64,000 nucleotides of DNA from Providencia alcalifaciens (GTDB taxonomy: Bacteria; Pseudomonadota; Gammaproteobacteria; Enterobacterales; Enterobacteriaceae). Shown here in pieces: positions 32,616-64,000 of the stretch. The translations under genes were made by a program, and so were the position numbers. The DNA is taken from the NCBI GenBank assembly GCA_025961275.1, contig JAOQNJ010000001.1, positions 4,051,353 to 4,115,352 on the forward strand, written 5' to 3'. A model generated the notes under the pieces. The model was not told the origin of the DNA and ran no database searches. It saw only the letters and a list, made by a program, of their open reading frames with translations. Position 1 is the stretch's first letter; each line of letters opens with the position of its first letter.

Positions 32616-32692
32616 GGCCCCTTAGCTCAGTTGGTTAGAGCAGTCGACTCATAATCGATTGGTCGCTGGTTCAAGTCCAGCAGGGGCCACCA
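32616..32692 (+). tRNA. ileX: tRNA-Ile2 (anticodon CAU, read as lysidine-AU)
   Basis: 77 bases with encoded CCA. GGCCCCT pairs with AGGGGCC in the acceptor stem, the anticodon loop is CTCATAA with CAT at 32650-32652, and GGTTCAAGTCC forms the T arm. It matches E. coli ileX/ileY almost exactly, so the CAU anticodon is that of AUA-reading tRNA-Ile (C34 modified by TilS), not tRNA-Met. Its 3' 46 bases are the left half of the prophage attachment repeat. Confidence 0.95.
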
Positions 32693-32748
32693 AATTTTAG
32701 CTGTTAAATCAGCACATTAAGCCACTTTTAACGAAGTGGCTTTTTTGT
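32647..32748. repeat. attL: left prophage attachment repeat
   Basis: 102 bp identical to 63886-63987. It starts in the tRNA anticodon loop region and runs through the tRNA 3' end and its terminator (GCCACTT/AAGTGGC then TTTTTT, 32721-32746). Integration therefore restored a whole tRNA at this end. Confidence 0.93.
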
Positions 32749-33331
32749 TTTTAAAGGTCATTGGCGGCAAAATGGCGACAGGGATTTTTTTACTGTCCCT
32801 GATTGTTTGTGACATGTCACGACGACTTTTATTTTTTCAAAAGTATGTCACGTTAATTTGACCCAAATATTTTTACAGCTCATTTCAGTTTTTCATTTCC
32901 TCACAAGCCGCATGATTACTGACTTATTGAAATTGTGCGGCTAATATTGCGATCCAATCAATCCCACGTAAAATAGAAATTATCTATATATTTCATTGTA
33001 TTAGTTTTTTAGCGCGATCCGTTTTGTGATCCAAAAACTGAAATCTATTGAAATTCTTTTCACACATTTCATTTTTCAATTTCTCGCAAGACCCTAGCAG
33101 TGGCGCGGCTTGGCGATATGTTTTGTAGAATTTTAAAACTGAAATAATTTTACTGCACAGATTGTGCAGGCGGGTGCGGTGTAGTGCGTTTTACGTGGTG
33201 AAATCTTTTATTTCGTGGGGGCTGTGATTCACCAGCGCTATGTAGTGGGCGCGATCCAATTTAATGATTAGGTGATGTTGGATAATTACTAATACGCTCT
33301 GTGTGGCGTGTAGGCTGCTATATTTCAGGTA
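32749..33331. other. Non-coding left end of the prophage
   Basis: About 580 bp without a convincing gene. It contains TGGCGGCA (32762-32769) and TGGCGACA (32773-32780), candidate integrase arm sites; the palindrome GTGACATGTCAC (32809-32820); a CAGGGA/TCCCTG hairpin near 32779-32800; and the word GCGATCCAAT twice (near 32950 and 33253). Confidence 0.6.
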
Positions 33332-45593: not shown

Positions 45594-46711
45594 TGATTAG
45601 CCTCCAAGCTAGCATCCAGTAAGATACTGACCGTAATCCCTTTCGGGCACTCATACGTTCTTACTGTGATATAAATTTCTACTGTGTTTTTGGTTTTCCA
45701 CACAATGACAACATCACCATCTTGCGGCGGCATACATTCACCAGGAAACGTGACGCCGTTAATTTCCGCACTACGTGACATTTCACGCATAGTGCGCGCA
45801 AAGTAGCTTTTGTGGGTTTCGATGCTATTTGGCGTACTGTTTAAGCTACGATTGCCCACTTTAGCAATCGCTTGTAAACGCACACGACGCGCAACCTTAT
45901 CGACAATACGCAAATTTTCGATAGCCTGAAAATCACCGCCCTCAACATCAAGCGTTCGACCATCCGACCAATACATACCATCATAATCGGGGTACCACAT
46001 CGGGACGCTAAAACGCAGTTTTTCCAGTGCTTGCAAAGTGGCTAAATCAATTTCTGCGCCGCTACTATCTTTCGGTTTATCAACGCTACCCAAATCAAGT
46101 AATGCGCCCGTTTGAACACGAGCCGGACTATCAGCGATAGTTACCGCGCGATTGCATAAACGACCCGCTAGCACGCCAGCTTCATTACCCCAAATTGAAG
46201 GCACTAGCTGGATAGATGCTTCAGCCTCACTTTTTTGTAGATCACTTAGCCGAGTCAGTGCAGTTTGCCAAGTTTCTTTATCTTGCAACCCTGCAACGGA
46301 AAGGATCGCCCACACCCAACGGCCATATTTAGCCAATAACGTAGCGCGGAGTGTTTGCGCTGCCTTAATGGTTTTTTTGGTGGTTTCACCAATGTAGACG
46401 TAGCCTTCAACGCTAGCGACTGATTGCGCTTTGAGTACTGCATCGACAAAATCGGTGTCAGTGGCACTTTCTGGCAGAATATGAACATAACCAAAGAAGT
46501 TCTGCCCCGCATTCGCCATTGCTGCTTTGGTGTTTGACTTTAAAGGGCTGTTTTCTGCCCCCAATAACTTATCTAAATCAGTTTGGGTATTAATAGGTAA
46601 GGTTTCGCCAATATGGCTTTTCCCTTTACCGACAAATAACAAGACGCGTTCAATTTCTTTAGTCTCGCCTTGTAACTGATTAATTTGATTAACTTGCACA
46701 TTAGGCCACAT
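45590..46711 (-). CDS. Contractile tail sheath protein (DUF2586)
   Basis: 373 residues: VQVNQINQLQGETKEIERVL, FVGKGKSH, NAGQNFFGYVHILPESATDT and YWSDGRTLDVEGGDFQAIEN, with the conserved sheath-type domain where the chain gives strands to neighbours at both ends. DUF2586 is the sheath of HP1-like phages. Its presence beside a DUF2597 tube shows the tail is contractile. Confidence 0.85.
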   Translation of the reverse strand: MWPNVQVNQINQLQGETKEIERVLLFVGKGKSHIGETLPINTQTDLDKLLGAENSPLKSNTKAAMANAGQNFFGYVHILPESATDTDFVDAVLKAQSVASVEGYVYIGETTKKTIKAAQTLRATLLAKYGRWVWAILSVAGLQDKETWQTALTRLSDLQKSEAEASIQLVPSIWGNEAGVLAGRLCNRAVTIADSPARVQTGALLDLGSVDKPKDSSGAEIDLATLQALEKLRFSVPMWYPDYDGMYWSDGRTLDVEGGDFQAIENLRIVDKVARRVRLQAIAKVGNRSLNSTPNSIETHKSYFARTMREMSRSAEINGVTFPGECMPPQDGDVVIVWKTKNTVEIYITVRTYECPKGITVSILLDASLEANQ

Positions 46712-54403: not shown

Positions 54404-55165
54404 TTACCCGTTAACCCATCCATGCTTTTTTAGCTTTTCCTCTAAGCGTTTTGCTTGTGCTTCATATTCTTTTCTTGCATATGTCATGTCACTTAATTTT
54501 TCTTGAAGGTCTTTTATTATTCTTTCTTTTGCTATAATTCCATTATCATTTAAGTTTTCTGTTAACCTCTCATTTTCATAGAATAATTCATTAACTTTCT
54601 CTTGTTGCATTGAAATTGTTTCCTGTAGTTCACTCATCTTATTTATATTAAATTCTTTTTCTTCTTTCAATTCGTTGATTTCTCTTGTTAGAGCGCCTTC
54701 TTTATCTTTAGAGACTGTAATTTGTTCTCTCATCTCTTGAATTTCTTTTTCTTTATTTGTTTTTGTATCCTCATAAGCCATATCTTTTTCAGCTCGTAAT
54801 GATTCTCTTTCTTTTTCAAGCTCTAACTCTTTTATTTTTTTACTATGCTCGATTGACATAGATATGTAATCAAACCAAACCATTGCTTTTTGGAAAACAA
54901 GATTTAATGGCTTATTAAGAAATAAGTAAGCAGTTGTAAAAAATACAGGTATAAACCATGAGTTTTTTTCACTAAATGCAACTGAGGCAATTTGTACTTT
55001 CTGCTGAATTGAATCATTACCGAAAATTAGAACAAGCAAGGAATTCCAGTTAAATACACACCATGAAATAACAAATGTTGCCATAACAGGATTTTTAATT
55101 CTATCTTTTGCAGCATCTGATACTGCCTGAACGATTTCTTTTGCTTCTTCTTTCATTTTTATCAT
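54404..55165 (-). CDS. Membrane protein with long coiled coil, probable prophage cargo gene
   Basis: 253 residues. After a short helix comes the conserved-looking RIKNPVMATFVISWCVFNWN, which starts a first membrane helix; a second follows at about 70-87 (IPVFFTTAYLFLNK). Residues 105-250 are almost unbroken heptad coiled coil (KIKELELEKERESLRAEKDM and on). I have seen the N-terminal pattern in other unannotated phage and plasmid proteins but know no function. It stands alone between ogr-like and the SOS-controlled gene, where P2-like phages carry exchangeable genes such as tin or old. Confidence 0.65.
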   Translation of the reverse strand: MIKMKEEAKEIVQAVSDAAKDRIKNPVMATFVISWCVFNWNSLLVLIFGNDSIQQKVQIASVAFSEKNSWFIPVFFTTAYLFLNKPLNLVFQKAMVWFDYISMSIEHSKKIKELELEKERESLRAEKDMAYEDTKTNKEKEIQEMREQITVSKDKEGALTREINELKEEKEFNINKMSELQETISMQQEKVNELFYENERLTENLNDNGIIAKERIIKDLQEKLSDMTYARKEYEAQAKRLEEKLKKHGWVNG

Positions 55166-55213: not shown

Positions 55214-55414
55214 CTAGTGATTTTTTTTATTTGTCGTTTTTTCATTTTTAACTATTTTTTCTCTTGCTTCATCTGCAATCTCGGTAATCATTTCTAGAAC
55301 AATTTGCATATCGCATGCATTGCATGTTTCTAAACTACCCAATTTAGCAATAACACTAATACGTTCAAATGCTATTGCTTCCTTTAAAAAATCACTCATA
55401 TTCAAATATCTCAT
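55214..55414 (-). CDS. Small SOS-controlled protein, candidate antirepressor (Tum position)
   Basis: 66 residues from ATG 55414, or 61 from ATG 55399 (MSDFLKEAIAFERISVIAKL), which leaves more room after the promoter. Helical and charged, with NACDMQIVLEMITEIADEAR and a Lys-rich tail. No family recognised. A perfect LexA box lies 6 bases upstream of 55414. In coliphage 186 the SOS-induced tum antirepressor gene occupies the same place, downstream of the replication gene and outside the early operon; this protein is shorter than Tum (146). Role inferred from site and position. Confidence 0.6.
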   Translation of the reverse strand: MRYLNMSDFLKEAIAFERISVIAKLGSLETCNACDMQIVLEMITEIADEAREKIVKNEKTTNKKNH

Positions 55415-55419
55415 CTGTA

Positions 55420-55439
55420 TACTGTGGATATATACAGTA
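55420..55439 (-). promoter_or_regulatory. LexA (SOS) box
   Basis: TACTGTGGATATATACAGTA matches the enterobacterial LexA consensus, with CTGT-N8-ACAG intact and both outer TA/TA pairs. It overlaps the presumed promoter of the leftward small gene. Confidence 0.9.
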
Positions 55440-55530: not shown

Positions 55531-55556
55531 CACTATCGTGACATGTCACGATAGTG
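55531..55556. repeat. Perfect 26-bp palindrome with GTGACATGTCAC centre
   Basis: The 26 bases are their own reverse complement, centred on GTGACATGTCAC (55538-55549), with six T immediately to the right. The same 12-bp core recurs at 55570-55581 and at 32809-32820 near attL. It separates the replication operon from the SOS gene. Confidence 0.8.
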
Positions 55557-55560
55557 TTTT

Positions 55561-55935
55561 TTATTGCTCGTGACATGTCACGTTCATTTTTATTCTCGCA
55601 GAACTTAAAGAAAACTCATTATGTCCTTTCGTTAGCCAGCACTCAGAATCACCCGCGAGGCAACATTCATTCACTGGCAAATTATCACCACATTTTTTGC
55701 AGCTAGATTTTGATAACTCTTCAAGCAGTTTATTCAGTCGCTCAGCATCTTGGCGTATCAGTAACTGAATATATTCGCCAACTTCGTATGGGTCTTTCCC
55801 TGGTCTACGTAATACGCAATTTTTTTTCACCATCTCTAATTCTTGAACATCAACAATCAGCTCAAATTTAGTTTCTTTGCTCTCTTTTTGTCGCTTACGT
55901 TGAGCCGCTTTGCGTTCTGCTGCTGTCATTGCCAT
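55561..55935 (-). CDS. Prophage protein with Cys cluster, last gene of the early operon
   Basis: 124 residues. A basic N terminus (AERKAAQRKRQKESKETKFE) precedes a helical part (EYIQLLIRQDAERLNKLLEE) and a Cys-rich end (SCKKCGDNLPVNECC ... CWL ... C) that could bind zinc. The ribbon-helix-helix-like first half suggests a DNA-binding accessory. It overlaps the 3' end of the replication gene by 41 bases. Not identified further. Confidence 0.7.
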   Translation of the reverse strand: MAMTAAERKAAQRKRQKESKETKFELIVDVQELEMVKKNCVLRRPGKDPYEVGEYIQLLIRQDAERLNKLLEELSKSSCKKCGDNLPVNECCLAGDSECWLTKGHNEFSLSSARIKMNVTCHEQ

Positions 55936-60316: not shown

Positions 60317-60907
60317 ATGAAGAGTCTGAGTGATTTTGTTTCTTGCGAAAATAGCGGTGAAGTTTTAGACAGAATTATGGAAGCTTACGGTTTCTCTTCT
60401 AAAATGATGATGGCCGAACATTTTAATATGGGAGCTAGTAGTCTTTCAGGAAGGTATAAGCGCAACATATTTCCAGCCGATATGGTTATCAGATGCATTC
60501 ATGAGACAGGTGCAAATCTTGAATGGCTAGCATGGGGTACAGGTAATCCTTTTGATAATGAAAGAATTGACTTACTTCGCTTGACTAATTTCAAACTACT
60601 TGAAGGTAAGTTACAACAAGCTAGTGGCGTGATGTTCGATAAAGTGATGTTATCGCCTAAGAAGTTGCTACCTAGTGAACCTATAAGTATTCAAATTGAT
60701 GGTGACTATTATATTATTGATAAAGTTTTTTCAGATGTATTCGATGGTAAATGGTTAGTTGATATTGAAGGAAAGATAAGCATTAGAGAGCTTACTCGCA
60801 TACCAATTCAGCGCGTTCGTGTCTCTGGCGTTGGCATGGCATTTGATTGTGAATTAAAAGATTTAACAATACTTGGGCGGGTAATAAAAGAGATAAAGGA
60901 TTATTAA
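60317..60907 (+). CDS. CI repressor of the 186 type
   Basis: 196 residues (186 CI 192). The N-terminal Phage_CI_repr domain reads DRIMEAYGFSSKMMMAEHFN, MGASSLSGRYKRNIFPADMV, IRCIHETGANLEWLAWGTG; the C-terminal oligomerisation domain follows (PISIQIDGDYYIIDKVFSDV). No Ser-Lys autocleavage pair is evident, so SOS induction would need a separate antirepressor, in line with the LexA-controlled gene at 55214. GAGG precedes the ATG. Confidence 0.85.
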   Translation: MKSLSDFVSCENSGEVLDRIMEAYGFSSKMMMAEHFNMGASSLSGRYKRNIFPADMVIRCIHETGANLEWLAWGTGNPFDNERIDLLRLTNFKLLEGKLQQASGVMFDKVMLSPKKLLPSEPISIQIDGDYYIIDKVFSDVFDGKWLVDIEGKISIRELTRIPIQRVRVSGVGMAFDCELKDLTILGRVIKEIKDY

Positions 60908-60909
60908 AT

Positions 60910-61836
60910 ATGAAAGTAATTTTACTAATTATAAAGATATTTATTATTGCCTTATTAGTTATTTTTTTTGCAGGGGGAGTGGCATCTCTATCAGTAACGC
61001 CAAGTATTGGCGGAACTGTATTTTTACTAATTATTACAGCAACACTTATTGCTGGCTTATCCCGTTGGTGGTTCTTTTCTAAGAAAAAGAAAGAAAAAAA
61101 ACAGGAACAACCAACCAGAGTAAAGAGCGATGTAGAAGAGCAGGTTGTAAAAGAATTTTCTCAGAGACCCATACTCACTCAACCAAATGATGCTACGCCT
61201 CCACCTAGAATTGTCACAGTTGATGAGGTACATGAAGAGCTAATAAAGACTTATGTTATGGAGAATGATAAATCGCTCATCTGGCAAGGTACAACAAAGC
61301 TTGCATCATTTAAAGTTGCTGATGTCAGAGATAAAACATATGGAATTATAACTAGTCTTATCATAAAAAATGATGGTGAATTTTATTTGCAAATAACAGA
61401 CCCAGAGACTGGGGAAGTAACAGAAATAAAAGAAAAAGAAATACAAACAAAAATTACTGTTGGCTCGACTCGATATGATTTCGTTGAGTTATGTCGAAAG
61501 GTTTTCAAACTAGATTTACATGAAATGTTCGAGTATGCCAAAAATATTAGATATGAAGCCAAAGAGTTACATTTAGTGACTGAATTTCCACCTATTAAAT
61601 CAATGTTTACTTATATTTCAGGCTCAGGTAAAAATAAAAGAACCATAGATATAGCCCAATATTTCAAAAATGGTTACGGCGATGAGTATATTGGTGGCTT
61701 CTGTTATACAAGAATGGAACACCGAACGTTTGCAGTAAGCCGAATCCAAACAATGATATCTAGTGATGGTCATAAAAAATATTACTTTCATGATTGGTTA
61801 AAAAATGTTGCTGGCATAAATAGTAATGGCAATTAA
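60910..61836 (+). CDS. Membrane protein with C-terminal WYL-like domain, lysogenic operon cargo
   Basis: 308 residues. Two membrane helices (about 5-28 and 34-54) end in WWFFSKKKKEKKQEQ; a linker follows, then a soluble part from about 110. Residues 230-285 (MFTYISGSGKNKRTIDIAQY, YIGGFCYTRMEHRTFAVSRI) follow the WYL pattern, where a Y/C-containing strand and the R-T-F...R-I end bind a ligand. The gene begins 2 bases after cI and overlaps int by 11 bases, so it is expressed in the lysogen. 186 has an unassigned gene (orf69) at this place. Superinfection exclusion or phage sensing is my inference. Confidence 0.7.
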   Translation: MKVILLIIKIFIIALLVIFFAGGVASLSVTPSIGGTVFLLIITATLIAGLSRWWFFSKKKKEKKQEQPTRVKSDVEEQVVKEFSQRPILTQPNDATPPPRIVTVDEVHEELIKTYVMENDKSLIWQGTTKLASFKVADVRDKTYGIITSLIIKNDGEFYLQITDPETGEVTEIKEKEIQTKITVGSTRYDFVELCRKVFKLDLHEMFEYAKNIRYEAKELHLVTEFPPIKSMFTYISGSGKNKRTIDIAQYFKNGYGDEYIGGFCYTRMEHRTFAVSRIQTMISSDGHKKYYFHDWLKNVAGINSNGN

Positions 61837-62845
61837 AAAACAGCCTGATGGGCGTTGGCAAGTTGAGTTATATCCCAATGGTCGAACAGGAAAGCGCATT
61901 CGAAAACTATTCACTACTAAAGGTGAAGCTCTTGCATATGAGCGCCATATTATTGAGCAAACGGAAGATAAACCGTGGCTTGGTGAAAAACAAGATAGGC
62001 GAAAGTTAACTGAACTTGTTGATACTTGGTATCGTGCACATGGTGTAACACTTGGTGATGGTGAAAAACGTCAATCACTTATGATCTTTGCTTGCGATGC
62101 AATGGGTGATCCGTTAGCTACTGAATTTAATGCCAAGATATTTTCGGTATACCGTGAAAAGCGCTTAAGCGGTGAAATAACCCGTACTGAGCGTTTAAAA
62201 ACAGTCACACCGCGTACGGTCAATTTAGAATTGGCGTATTTTAGAGCCATGTTTAATGAGTTGATTCGTCTTGATGAGTGGGGCTTAGAGCACCCGTTAG
62301 CCAAAGTTCGTTCTTATAAAACTGACGAACAAGAAATGGCATTTTTAACTGATGATGAAATTAAACTGTTATTAGCTGAATGTGAAAATAGTTCATCGGC
62401 TGATTTAATCCATGTGGTTAAAATTTGTTTGGCGTCAGGTGCAAGGTGGTCGGAAGCTGAGAATTTAACCGCTATACAGATTCGAAATAATACGGTGACT
62501 TTTACTAAGACAAAAGGAAAACGCAACCGTTCTATTCCTATTAGTGAAGAATTAATTGCAGAATTACCGAAAGCGAAAGGCTCAAAGCGGTTATTTAAAT
62601 CCTGCTATTCTGCATTTCGTTCTGCTTTTAGTCGTACTGGTATTGAGTTACCCGAACGACAATCATCACATGTTTTACGCCACACCTTTGCATCCCACTT
62701 TATGATGTCCGGTGGAAATATTTTAGTATTACAAAGAATCCTTGGCCATACTGATATCAAAATGACAATGCGGTATGCCCATTTCGCCCCAGATCATCTT
62801 AATGATGCACTGGTTTATAATCCTTTGGTGAAGTTGAAGAAATAG
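61826..62845 (+). CDS. int: Tyrosine-recombinase integrase
   Basis: 339 residues. N-terminal arm-binding region (PDGRWQVELYPNGRTGKRIR), core-binding domain, and a catalytic domain with R207 (ASGARWSEAENL), H282 and R285 (SHVLRHTFASHF), H308 (RILGHTDIKMT) and the nucleophile Y317 (MRYAHFAPDHL). All key residues are present. It inserts and excises the prophage at tRNA-Ile2. It lies one gene away from attR and is transcribed toward it. Confidence 0.95.
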   Translation: MAIKKQPDGRWQVELYPNGRTGKRIRKLFTTKGEALAYERHIIEQTEDKPWLGEKQDRRKLTELVDTWYRAHGVTLGDGEKRQSLMIFACDAMGDPLATEFNAKIFSVYREKRLSGEITRTERLKTVTPRTVNLELAYFRAMFNELIRLDEWGLEHPLAKVRSYKTDEQEMAFLTDDEIKLLLAECENSSSADLIHVVKICLASGARWSEAENLTAIQIRNNTVTFTKTKGKRNRSIPISEELIAELPKAKGSKRLFKSCYSAFRSAFSRTGIELPERQSSHVLRHTFASHFMMSGGNILVLQRILGHTDIKMTMRYAHFAPDHLNDALVYNPLVKLKK

Positions 62846-62846
62846 A

Positions 62847-63758
62847 ATGTATATAGTAGCTTACTTTTCTATCTTATTTTTTGTTTTTTTCTGTATGTAT
62901 TGTTATAGAGGATACTTTCCATTAACTGAAAAAAGCTTAGATAAACAAAAATTATTTTGGGCTGCCTTGATTATCCCTCTATTATCTTGTCTATATTTTG
63001 GAATTCCTGTGTGGTCTAATTATTCATTTGACATGTCTGCTAATGGGTATAGCGAGTTTTTGAAAATTAGCACTTTACCATTATATATTTTGGCATCAGC
63101 TCCTATTTTTGCAGCATTTGTAGCAAATACACATAGAACGATTCAAACTGCAAAGCAAATTACGGAAACAGAAAAAAAGAATAAAGTAGATCTTGTTTTC
63201 TCTAAGTATAACTTTGCAAATGAAAGGCTAAGTAAAGTTACTTTTTTATGTGGAAGGAAATTAGCATCTACCGATACTATCATACTTCTTTTTTTTCATA
63301 TTAAAGATACTGGTTTATATATAAATAAAAAAGCAGTTAACGAGTTGAATTCAAAAATTTTTAATATGATTAAAATTAGAAATAAAATTGAGGTGGATAT
63401 TGATAGGGTTAATGATAGCTGTGAGGAAAGTGAAATCCCTGATATTTTGAATGAAATTGGTGAATGTCTTAGGGAAATTGACAGTACTTATATATTTATA
63501 TGTATGAGGCTAGGAATTTATTTTGATGATAATTCGGACTCGCAGTCGAGTCATCCTTCTATGCTAAAAAGTCCGATAAGTAAAAACATTAGTTTAGAAT
63601 ATATTTTAGGTGATGGAGGTAGAATTAAAGCTCAAATTCAAGCTCATGTAGATATGTTCATACATGATTTAAAAAAGATAATTGATATATTATCTATTAT
63701 AGATGAGCGTGTAAAAAACTGTTATGAAAAAGAAATTACATCCAAAGTGAATGGATAG
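62847..63758 (+). CDS. Membrane protein between int and attR, candidate superinfection-exclusion or defence gene
   Basis: 303 residues. Three hydrophobic helices (about 1-21, 38-54 and 76-92) precede a cytosolic helical domain starting FVANTHRTIQTAKQITETEK and FSKYNFANERLSKVTF, with an amphipathic C terminus (IHDLKKIIDILSIIDERVKN). The AKQITETEKKNK-helix layout is common in unassigned prophage membrane proteins and toxin-like effectors of defence systems, but I cannot assign a family. It begins one base after the int stop and is very AT-rich. Co-transcription with cI-int would make it a lysogen-expressed cargo. Confidence 0.65.
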   Translation: MYIVAYFSILFFVFFCMYCYRGYFPLTEKSLDKQKLFWAALIIPLLSCLYFGIPVWSNYSFDMSANGYSEFLKISTLPLYILASAPIFAAFVANTHRTIQTAKQITETEKKNKVDLVFSKYNFANERLSKVTFLCGRKLASTDTIILLFFHIKDTGLYINKKAVNELNSKIFNMIKIRNKIEVDIDRVNDSCEESEIPDILNEIGECLREIDSTYIFICMRLGIYFDDNSDSQSSHPSMLKSPISKNISLEYILGDGGRIKAQIQAHVDMFIHDLKKIIDILSIIDERVKNCYEKEITSKVNG

Positions 63759-63885: not shown

Positions 63886-63987
63886 ACTCATAATCGATTG
63901 GTCGCTGGTTCAAGTCCAGCAGGGGCCACCAAATTTTAGCTGTTAAATCAGCACATTAAGCCACTTTTAACGAAGTGGCTTTTTTGT
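63886..63987. repeat. attR: right prophage attachment repeat with tRNA 3' fragment
   Basis: Perfect 102-bp copy of 32647-32748. It contains only the last 46 bases of tRNA-Ile2 (to 63931) plus the terminator hairpin; the 5' half is absent, so no tRNA is made here. The host chromosome resumes after 63987. Confidence 0.93.
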
Positions 63988-64000
63988 ATCTGGTAGTCAT

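Follow-up and report, generated by a model that had tools for sequence, protein, structure and literature searches.

What does a predicted membrane protein with a WYL-like tail do between the repressor and the integrase gene of a prophage, and is it part of the lysogeny machinery or a passenger? The question is raised by a gene in the window, a stretch of 64,000 nt from Providencia alcalifaciens (contig JAOQNJ010000001.1), and the first-pass annotation had described its product as a membrane-anchored WYL-like protein locked between cI and int, with the gene as part of the lysogenic operon.

The gene and its prophage

Judged from its sequence, the host element is a 186/P2-like prophage. Profile matches identify a cI with both Phage_CI domains, CII (PF06892) and Cox (phrog_575), and the relatives of the prophage that bear a name in GenBank are Peduoviridae. 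The element is bounded by 115-nt repeats, the left of which overlaps a tRNA-Met gene. The features that frame the locus are the following.

32647..32761, + strand: left attachment repeat, comprising the 3' part of tRNA-Met (32616-32692) and downstream sequence
60317..60907, + strand: cI repressor (Phage_CI_repr and Phage_CI_C profile matches)
60910..61836, + strand: membrane-anchored tandem-WYL gene, 308 aa, ATG start
61826..62845, + strand: tyrosine integrase, int (profile matches)
62847..63758, + strand: downstream membrane-protein ORF, a second variable cargo position that is not specific to WYL phages
63886..64000, + strand: right attachment repeat, 95% identical to the left repeat

The ORF coordinates confirm the tight packing noted earlier, with a 2-nt gap (60908-60909) between the end of cI at 60907 and the start codon at 60910, and an 11-nt overlap with int (61826 to 61836). 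The lysogenic operon proposed by the first-pass annotation holds to the extent that this layout points to a unit shared with cI and int; promoter-like matches are about as frequent as chance predicts (16 observed, 16.4 expected). The ORF encodes a real protein under purifying selection, because relatives of its soluble part at 30-36% identity hold the same position between cI and int, and because dN/dS against L011, a copy from a congener genome that is about 75% identical, is low (0.159 for the whole gene). Conserved position and dN/dS also rule out a chance ORF. Broken down by part, dN/dS against L011 was 0.072 for domain B, 0.098 for domain A, 0.20 for the linker and 0.21 for the membrane part. 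The linker value was high against L004 (0.83) and L005 (1.03), with dS above 1 in both comparisons, but not against L011.

The downstream membrane-protein ORF begins 1 nt after the int stop codon and is AT-rich (28% GC). Its relatives sit after int in L007, L026 and L032. A two-gene system formed by this ORF and the WYL gene is not supported by cargo pairing in other phages, because such relatives also trail int beside TIR-like (L026) or multi-TM (L032) cargo.

Three further observations concern the prophage and its surroundings. A second 186/P2-like cI of the same genome (L312; G000:C1:4142937-4143491) lies 27.6 kb beyond the window end and is followed by a WYL-BRCT gene, a TIR-like gene and an integrase; the distance points to a tandem arrangement, with a second prophage in the same tRNA site. 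A LexA-like box (TACTGTGGATATATACAGTA) is found at 55422-55437, after gene A and upstream of a 66-aa ORF (55214-55414, - strand), with a 253-aa membrane coiled-coil ORF (54404-55165, - strand) also downstream of it. As a short pattern alone the box is at chance level (1 observed, 0.62 expected); its position presumably corresponds to that of the SOS-controlled tum of phage 186. The palindrome CGTGACATGTCACG occurs with 0 or 1 mismatch at 32808-32821, 45774-45787, 55537-55550 and 55569-55582, four places where 0.10 would be expected with as many as 2 mismatches allowed, and is a possible operator or phage-wide binding site.

Predicted architecture of the protein

Hydropathy, structure modelling with AlphaFold and profile comparison divide the protein into five parts.

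60913..60993, + strand: predicted membrane helix 1, residues 2-28 (hydropathy; AlphaFold helix of moderate to low pLDDT)
61006..61098, + strand: predicted membrane helix 2 with basic end, residues 33-63 (hydropathy and AlphaFold; pLDDT below 50 from residue 52)
61099..61248, + strand: disordered linker, residues 64-113 (pLDDT below 50)
61261..61557, + strand: domain A, residues 118-216, a divergent WYL-like repeat that lacks the basic/Cys signature
61564..61824, + strand: domain B, residues 219-305, a WYL domain with K241, K243, R244, C265, R268 and R272

Residues 1-60 contain two hydrophobic segments, after which comes a Lys-rich stretch. AlphaFold, run on six sequences, modelled helices at residues 2-28 and 33-63, the second ending in KKKKEKK, with pLDDT values of 44-75 in ten-residue blocks over residues 1-60 and below 50 over residues 52-113. 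The best model had a mean pLDDT of 70.2 and a pTM of 0.47; mean pLDDT values of the five models were 70.2, 69.8, 57.3, 54.1 and 52.0, the last three models being poorer. With two hydrophobic stretches modelled as helices, the membrane anchor is borne out as a prediction. According to the positive-inside rule, the basic side of membrane segments is cytoplasmic. Since the Lys-rich stretch trails the hydrophobic segments, we predict that the two helices form a membrane hairpin whose ends both face the cytoplasm.

The soluble part was modelled as two strand-rich domains, with block pLDDT values of 82-96 over about residues 121-280. Both run from a strand through a three-residue helix to a second strand (short in A) and then a helix, the last one being of low confidence. 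The R-T-F...R-I pattern, from which the first-pass annotation had read a WYL domain, is present at residues 272-274 and 278-279, and in the model of domain B the strand-short helix-strand element at R272-I279 covers it.

The profile search gave a divided answer for the window protein itself, which matched PF13280 over residues 233-281 at 17.3 bits, below the Pfam cut-off of 21.8, while relatives of the same 2TM-WYL-WYL layout passed it (L008, 26.0 bits; L159, 25.3 bits). Among nine family members, seven matched PF13280 at E≤1, the best at 9.5e-6, and relatives with three predicted membrane segments also exceeded the cut-off (L057, 24.0; L072, 24.5; L199, 29.1 bits). In profile-profile comparison, domain B scored 50.5 (hhalign) against four single-WYL slot proteins (L057, L072, L091 and L100, of which L057, L072 and L100 were scanned and exceed the Pfam cut-off), with at most 18.0 in 30 column shuffles. 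Domain A scored 34.8 against domain B (at most 14.5 in 30 shuffles) and 54.0 against the single-WYL set when the set included the bridge protein L013 (15.1 shuffled), which itself matches Pfam WYL at 32.5 bits. Removal of L013 from the set left domain A without significance (16.6 against 18.7 shuffled), and domain A as a WYL domain in its own right was discarded on this ground. On the Pfam passes of the relatives and these profile-profile scores, domain B is assigned as a WYL domain and, less certainly, domain A as a divergent repeat of it. The WYL-type domain claimed earlier is thus supported by profile evidence and by a model of compatible secondary structure. The window protein's score under the Pfam cut-off and a PDB sequence search without a match at E≤1 would also fit a membrane protein with a strand-rich tail that resembles WYL by chance. 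The relatives above the cut-off, the scores far above shuffles and the modelled element at R272-I279 make such a coincidence very improbable.

According to Makarova et al. (2014, PMC4012209), the ligand groove of WYL domains carries a signature of four basic residues and a frequent cysteine, and the domains often occur in two copies, with known fusions to BRCT and TerB. In domain B, matched to the published groove positions by inspection, K241, K/R243, R244, C265, R268 and R272 are kept in all eight membrane members compared; of the four soluble relatives, none has R244, R268 or R272 and one has C265. Alignment by inspection shows domain A to lack the basic/Cys signature.

Profile searches and the model revealed no winged HTH at the N-terminus, where the hydrophobic hairpin stands in its place, and no match to an HTH family. 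A DNA-binding WYL regulator was rejected for want of a detectable HTH. No CARF profile matched the 308-aa protein. The other three WYL matches of the same genome resemble, by eye, HTH-WYL regulators.

The interval between cI and int as an exchangeable cargo site

To describe the slot between cI and int, loci were collected from IMG/VR through cI and int alignments (the best 80 of 222 for cI and the best 80 of at least 597 for int) and pooled with loci found through the WYL protein and in phage records. Non-identical sequences were counted as distinct slots, so that close variants count separately; L007, with two prophages, gives two slots, and L104 was counted twice, its single int being preceded by two cI-like genes. 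The 154 distinct slots comprised 67 empty (<100 nt), 7 short (100-300 nt), 28 with a WYL-type gene and 52 with other cargo, proportions that describe close relatives rather than all P2-like phages because only the best-ranked loci were taken. Restricting the count to loci fetched by cI or int gave a similar picture (147 slots: 66 empty, 7 short, 24 WYL-type, 50 other). The gene is therefore not 'locked' between cI and int, as had been proposed: 67 of the 154 slots are empty and 52 hold other genes, and close relatives swap the gene cleanly.

The WYL-type class is a single-linkage BLAST cluster of 28 of the 105 slot ORFs. Counted in it are L150, from which almost all of both WYL domains is missing, soluble members in which Pfam finds no WYL (L122, L154 and L178) and WYL-BRCT proteins, whose WYL half is assigned by profile comparison only. 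A TIR/deoxyribosyltransferase-like cluster accounts for 20 of the 105 ORFs; its representative matches a PADLOC TIR effector (E 1.6e-9), and four members scanned gave no Pfam match above cut-off. A bSEFIR gene (PADLOC E 1.5e-105) lies beside a WYL-BRCT gene in the slot of L101. Other cargo consists of bPH-SHOCT proteins, signal-peptide proteins and second cI-like repressors.

Several individual cargo genes deserve mention. The extra cI-like repressors inside the slots of L095 (L095:3269-3865) and L098 (L098:3268-3864) may represent carriage of a second immunity; the L095 protein, the one of the two scanned, has both Phage_CI domains (Pfam). The slot proteins of L049, L050 and L090 appear by eye to join a TerB-like N-terminal half to a BRCT-like C-terminal half, and that of L049 matches PADLOC PDC-S48 (E 1.3e-6) and has no Pfam match to TerB or BRCT. 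In L205 (G062, another genome of the same order), at about 8.4-14 kb, a single-WYL ORF above the Pfam cut-off is one of several cargo ORFs flanked by cI (profile E 1e-20) and int (3.5e-121).

The closest neighbours of the window prophage show the exchange directly. In L026 (protein identity 90% for cI and 96% for int) a TIR-like gene replaces the WYL gene, and DNA similarity to the window ends within the cI stop codon and returns at the int ATG. A TIR-like gene also fills the slot of L027 (cI 85%, int 96%), and the slot of L028 (cI 83%, int 62%) is empty, with a 16-nt gap. Relics exist as well: in L009 only the final 63 or so residues survive, and L150 has been mentioned above. Because of the swap in L026, the relics L009 and L150 and the empty slot of L028, the WYL gene is exchangeable, and related prophages without it exist. 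Its status as cargo, which the first-pass annotation had left to a deletion experiment, is backed by these natural exchanges and relics. A requirement of the gene for lysogeny was rejected because close relatives hold other cargo (L026, L027) or nothing (L028).

A hotspot with anti-phage systems has been reported between cI and int of P2-related phages of Vibrionaceae; together with one in Bacillus it is said to hold RM, Septu, a helicase with DUF2290, and PARIS (PMC9122126). The slots surveyed here hold bSEFIR and TIR-like genes, and a defence role of the WYL protein would fit this company. The signal-peptide and bPH-SHOCT proteins of the same slots would agree with conversion of a host trait unrelated to phages, for example through an envelope or stress sensor, and Vibrio phage K139 has a virulence-associated glo gene (PMC3986222). 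Such a role appears improbable, given the ties of WYL domains to nucleic-acid conflict systems (PMC4012209) and the bSEFIR and TIR-like genes that share the slot.

Searches with the window protein, counting its own genome each time, gave matches in 2 of 60 relatives, in 2 of 24 genomes from the genus, and in samples of the family (2 of 246), the order (3 of 394) and the class (2 of 369, where the other match covers the hydrophobic stretch only). Phage records gave 2 matches in 50,697, the same phage twice, and plasmid records none in 72,556. A separate search gave hits in four Stenotrophomonas phages. The 3TM relative L072 had no DNA match in E. coli genomes.

Three membrane-WYL layouts recur in the slot: 2TM-WYL-WYL, as in the window, 3TM-WYL (about 176-185 aa; L057, L072 and L199, the three scanned, exceed the Pfam WYL cut-off) and 4TM-WYL-BRCT (about 414-424 aa), three genes of which begin 14 nt after cI. 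In IMG/VR, all 8 loci of the 2TM family, one of them a relic, lie between cI and int, and a search with the 3TM-WYL protein only placed 20 of 20 loci there (3 being contigs of the query sequences; ORFs were short in L219, L225 and L226). The anchor is not universal, because soluble tandem-WYL relatives (L014, L122, L154, L178) share the slot. Nor is the layout exclusive to P2-like phages, because three membrane-WYL ORFs lie outside such a slot. L012 has two hydrophobic segments and 27% identity to the window protein; the 17 kb examined there contain neither a P2-type cI nor a P2-type int. L206:8188-8865 (G955) joins a membrane stretch to a WYL-like domain (WYL score 18.7, below cut-off) and adjoins a small ORF that looks HTH-like by eye. 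Acetobacter phage phiAP1 (L202:2974-3489) encodes a 171-aa protein with two hydrophobic stretches and one WYL-like domain, with annotated XRE regulators nearby.

In Vibrio phage PV94 and Mannheimia phage PHL101 a soluble WYL-BRCT gene comes immediately after cI, and in phage Cartapus such a gene is placed after int. Among the WYL-BRCT rows of IMG/VR, 27 of 81 lie within 60 nt of a profile-recognised cI. The WYL half of these proteins has no direct match to domain A or B (15.2 against 14.1 and 16.2 against 14.5, respectively, in 20 shuffles); it matches the single-WYL set with L013 (38.7 against 16.3 shuffled) and without it (39.5 against 22.1).

The tight linkage of membrane-WYL and WYL-BRCT genes to cI, seen in the twenty 3TM-WYL loci (three of them query contigs), in PV94 and PHL101 and in the 27 of 81 rows, might indicate a modulator of the lysogeny switch, which would sense a nucleotide or DNA-damage signal and act on the CI or Int translated from its own mRNA. 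The small HTH regulators adjoining the phiAP1 and L206 ORFs outside the slot would agree with this. We consider such a modulator unlikely, as close relatives carry a TIR-like gene (L026, L027) or nothing (L028) in its place, and a LexA-like box, at chance level as a short pattern, lies where phage 186 keeps its own SOS module. A predicted membrane protein beside cI, in a slot where three membrane-WYL layouts adjoin the repressor gene, could also act in superinfection exclusion without ligand gating: the hairpin would keep the DNA of related phages out of the cell, with a WYL part that is structural or binds incoming DNA directly. All eight membrane members compared strictly retain the basic/Cys signature, and domain B evolves most slowly against L011 (dN/dS 0.072, against 0.21 for the membrane part), which suggests that binding matters most and renders ungated exclusion, too, an unlikely account.

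Possible function and relation to known systems

We tentatively favour the reading that the WYL gene is a lysogen-expressed accessory (lysogenic-conversion) gene, plausibly encoding an anti-phage sensor-effector that acts on its own at the inner membrane. The protein would be made in the lysogen together with cI and int and would wait in the inner membrane. Domain B, which keeps the basic residues and the cysteine, may bind a nucleic-acid or nucleotide signal raised by infection, with domain A as a scaffold. Ligand binding might then cause the membrane hairpin to oligomerise or open, and this could stop the infected cell or the incoming phage. Such an action would be like that of 2TM-CARF-type effectors (Cap1, Cam1), the WYL gene being alone in its slot, with no CRISPR or CBASS partner there. 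Defence libraries do not name the protein, the best PADLOC match being a weak WYL hit (E 9.5e-5), and against a defence role stand the slot genes that do not look like defence genes (signal-peptide, cI-like and bPH-SHOCT proteins).

More generally, though this is doubtful, temperate phages, P2-like ones above all, may carry stand-alone membrane effectors in at least three layouts beside the lysogenic repressor, with WYL domains that gate the hairpin directly when a nucleic acid or nucleotide made during infection is present, as a WYL counterpart of the CARF-membrane effectors. Most of the published WYL proteins covered by our sources regulate transcription, and WYL domains have been regarded chiefly as sensors that serve transcription factors; if true, this reading would carry WYL beyond regulation into direct effector action. 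The gene offers a single-gene test case, whose ligand could reveal the signal that WYL domains read during infection. The slot census also marks the cI-int interval of 186/P2-like phages as a productive place for new accessory genes.

As to the statement in the first-pass annotation that this is not a known phage gene type, a search of titles and abstract openings on membrane or phage WYL proteins and on the slot found no membrane-anchored WYL phage protein. In databases, relatives have been deposited. Two isolated Peduoviridae, Yersinia phages vB_YenM_201.16 and vB_YenM_324, carry between cI and integrase a 3TM-WYL and a soluble tandem-WYL gene, respectively, both annotated as hypothetical. 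The phiAP1 protein (BCZ75814.1), deposited as 'WYL domain protein', has two hydrophobic stretches and WYL as in the window protein, but a single WYL domain, in an unrelated phage whose 6.4 kb read shows no cI-int slot of P2 type. The WYL domain and the type of slot are known, and it is the combination of membrane anchor and WYL for which this search found no published description.

Within the WYL superfamily (PF13280; CapW, BrxR, PafBC, and WYL1 of type VI-D CRISPR), domain B matches the profile and keeps the basic residues and the cysteine. The window protein differs from the regulators CapW, BrxR and PafBC in having a predicted membrane hairpin instead of a detected DNA-binding domain, and in its divergent first repeat. 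In layout it is like Cap1 (2TM-CARFL-DUF4579), Cam1 and Csx23, which are reported to join membrane helices to a nucleotide-sensing domain; Cap1 is described as an effector of type III CRISPR with a pore that cA4 binding opens (PMC12642688). The window protein has WYL instead of a CARF-like domain, and its gene lies alone between cI and int; neither CRISPR nor cyclase genes accompany it there. It is not classed as Cap1-type because it has no CARF domain and no signal-making partner in the slot. In position, the gene corresponds to the cI-int hotspot of Vibrionaceae phages of the K139/PhiO18P type (Rousset et al., 2022), reported with variable cargo that includes defence genes; in the main text of PMC9122126, 'WYL' occurs in the reference list only. 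The slot surveyed here belongs to 186/P2-like phages of other hosts and, like that hotspot, it holds variable, exchangeable genes between cI and int, defence genes among them.
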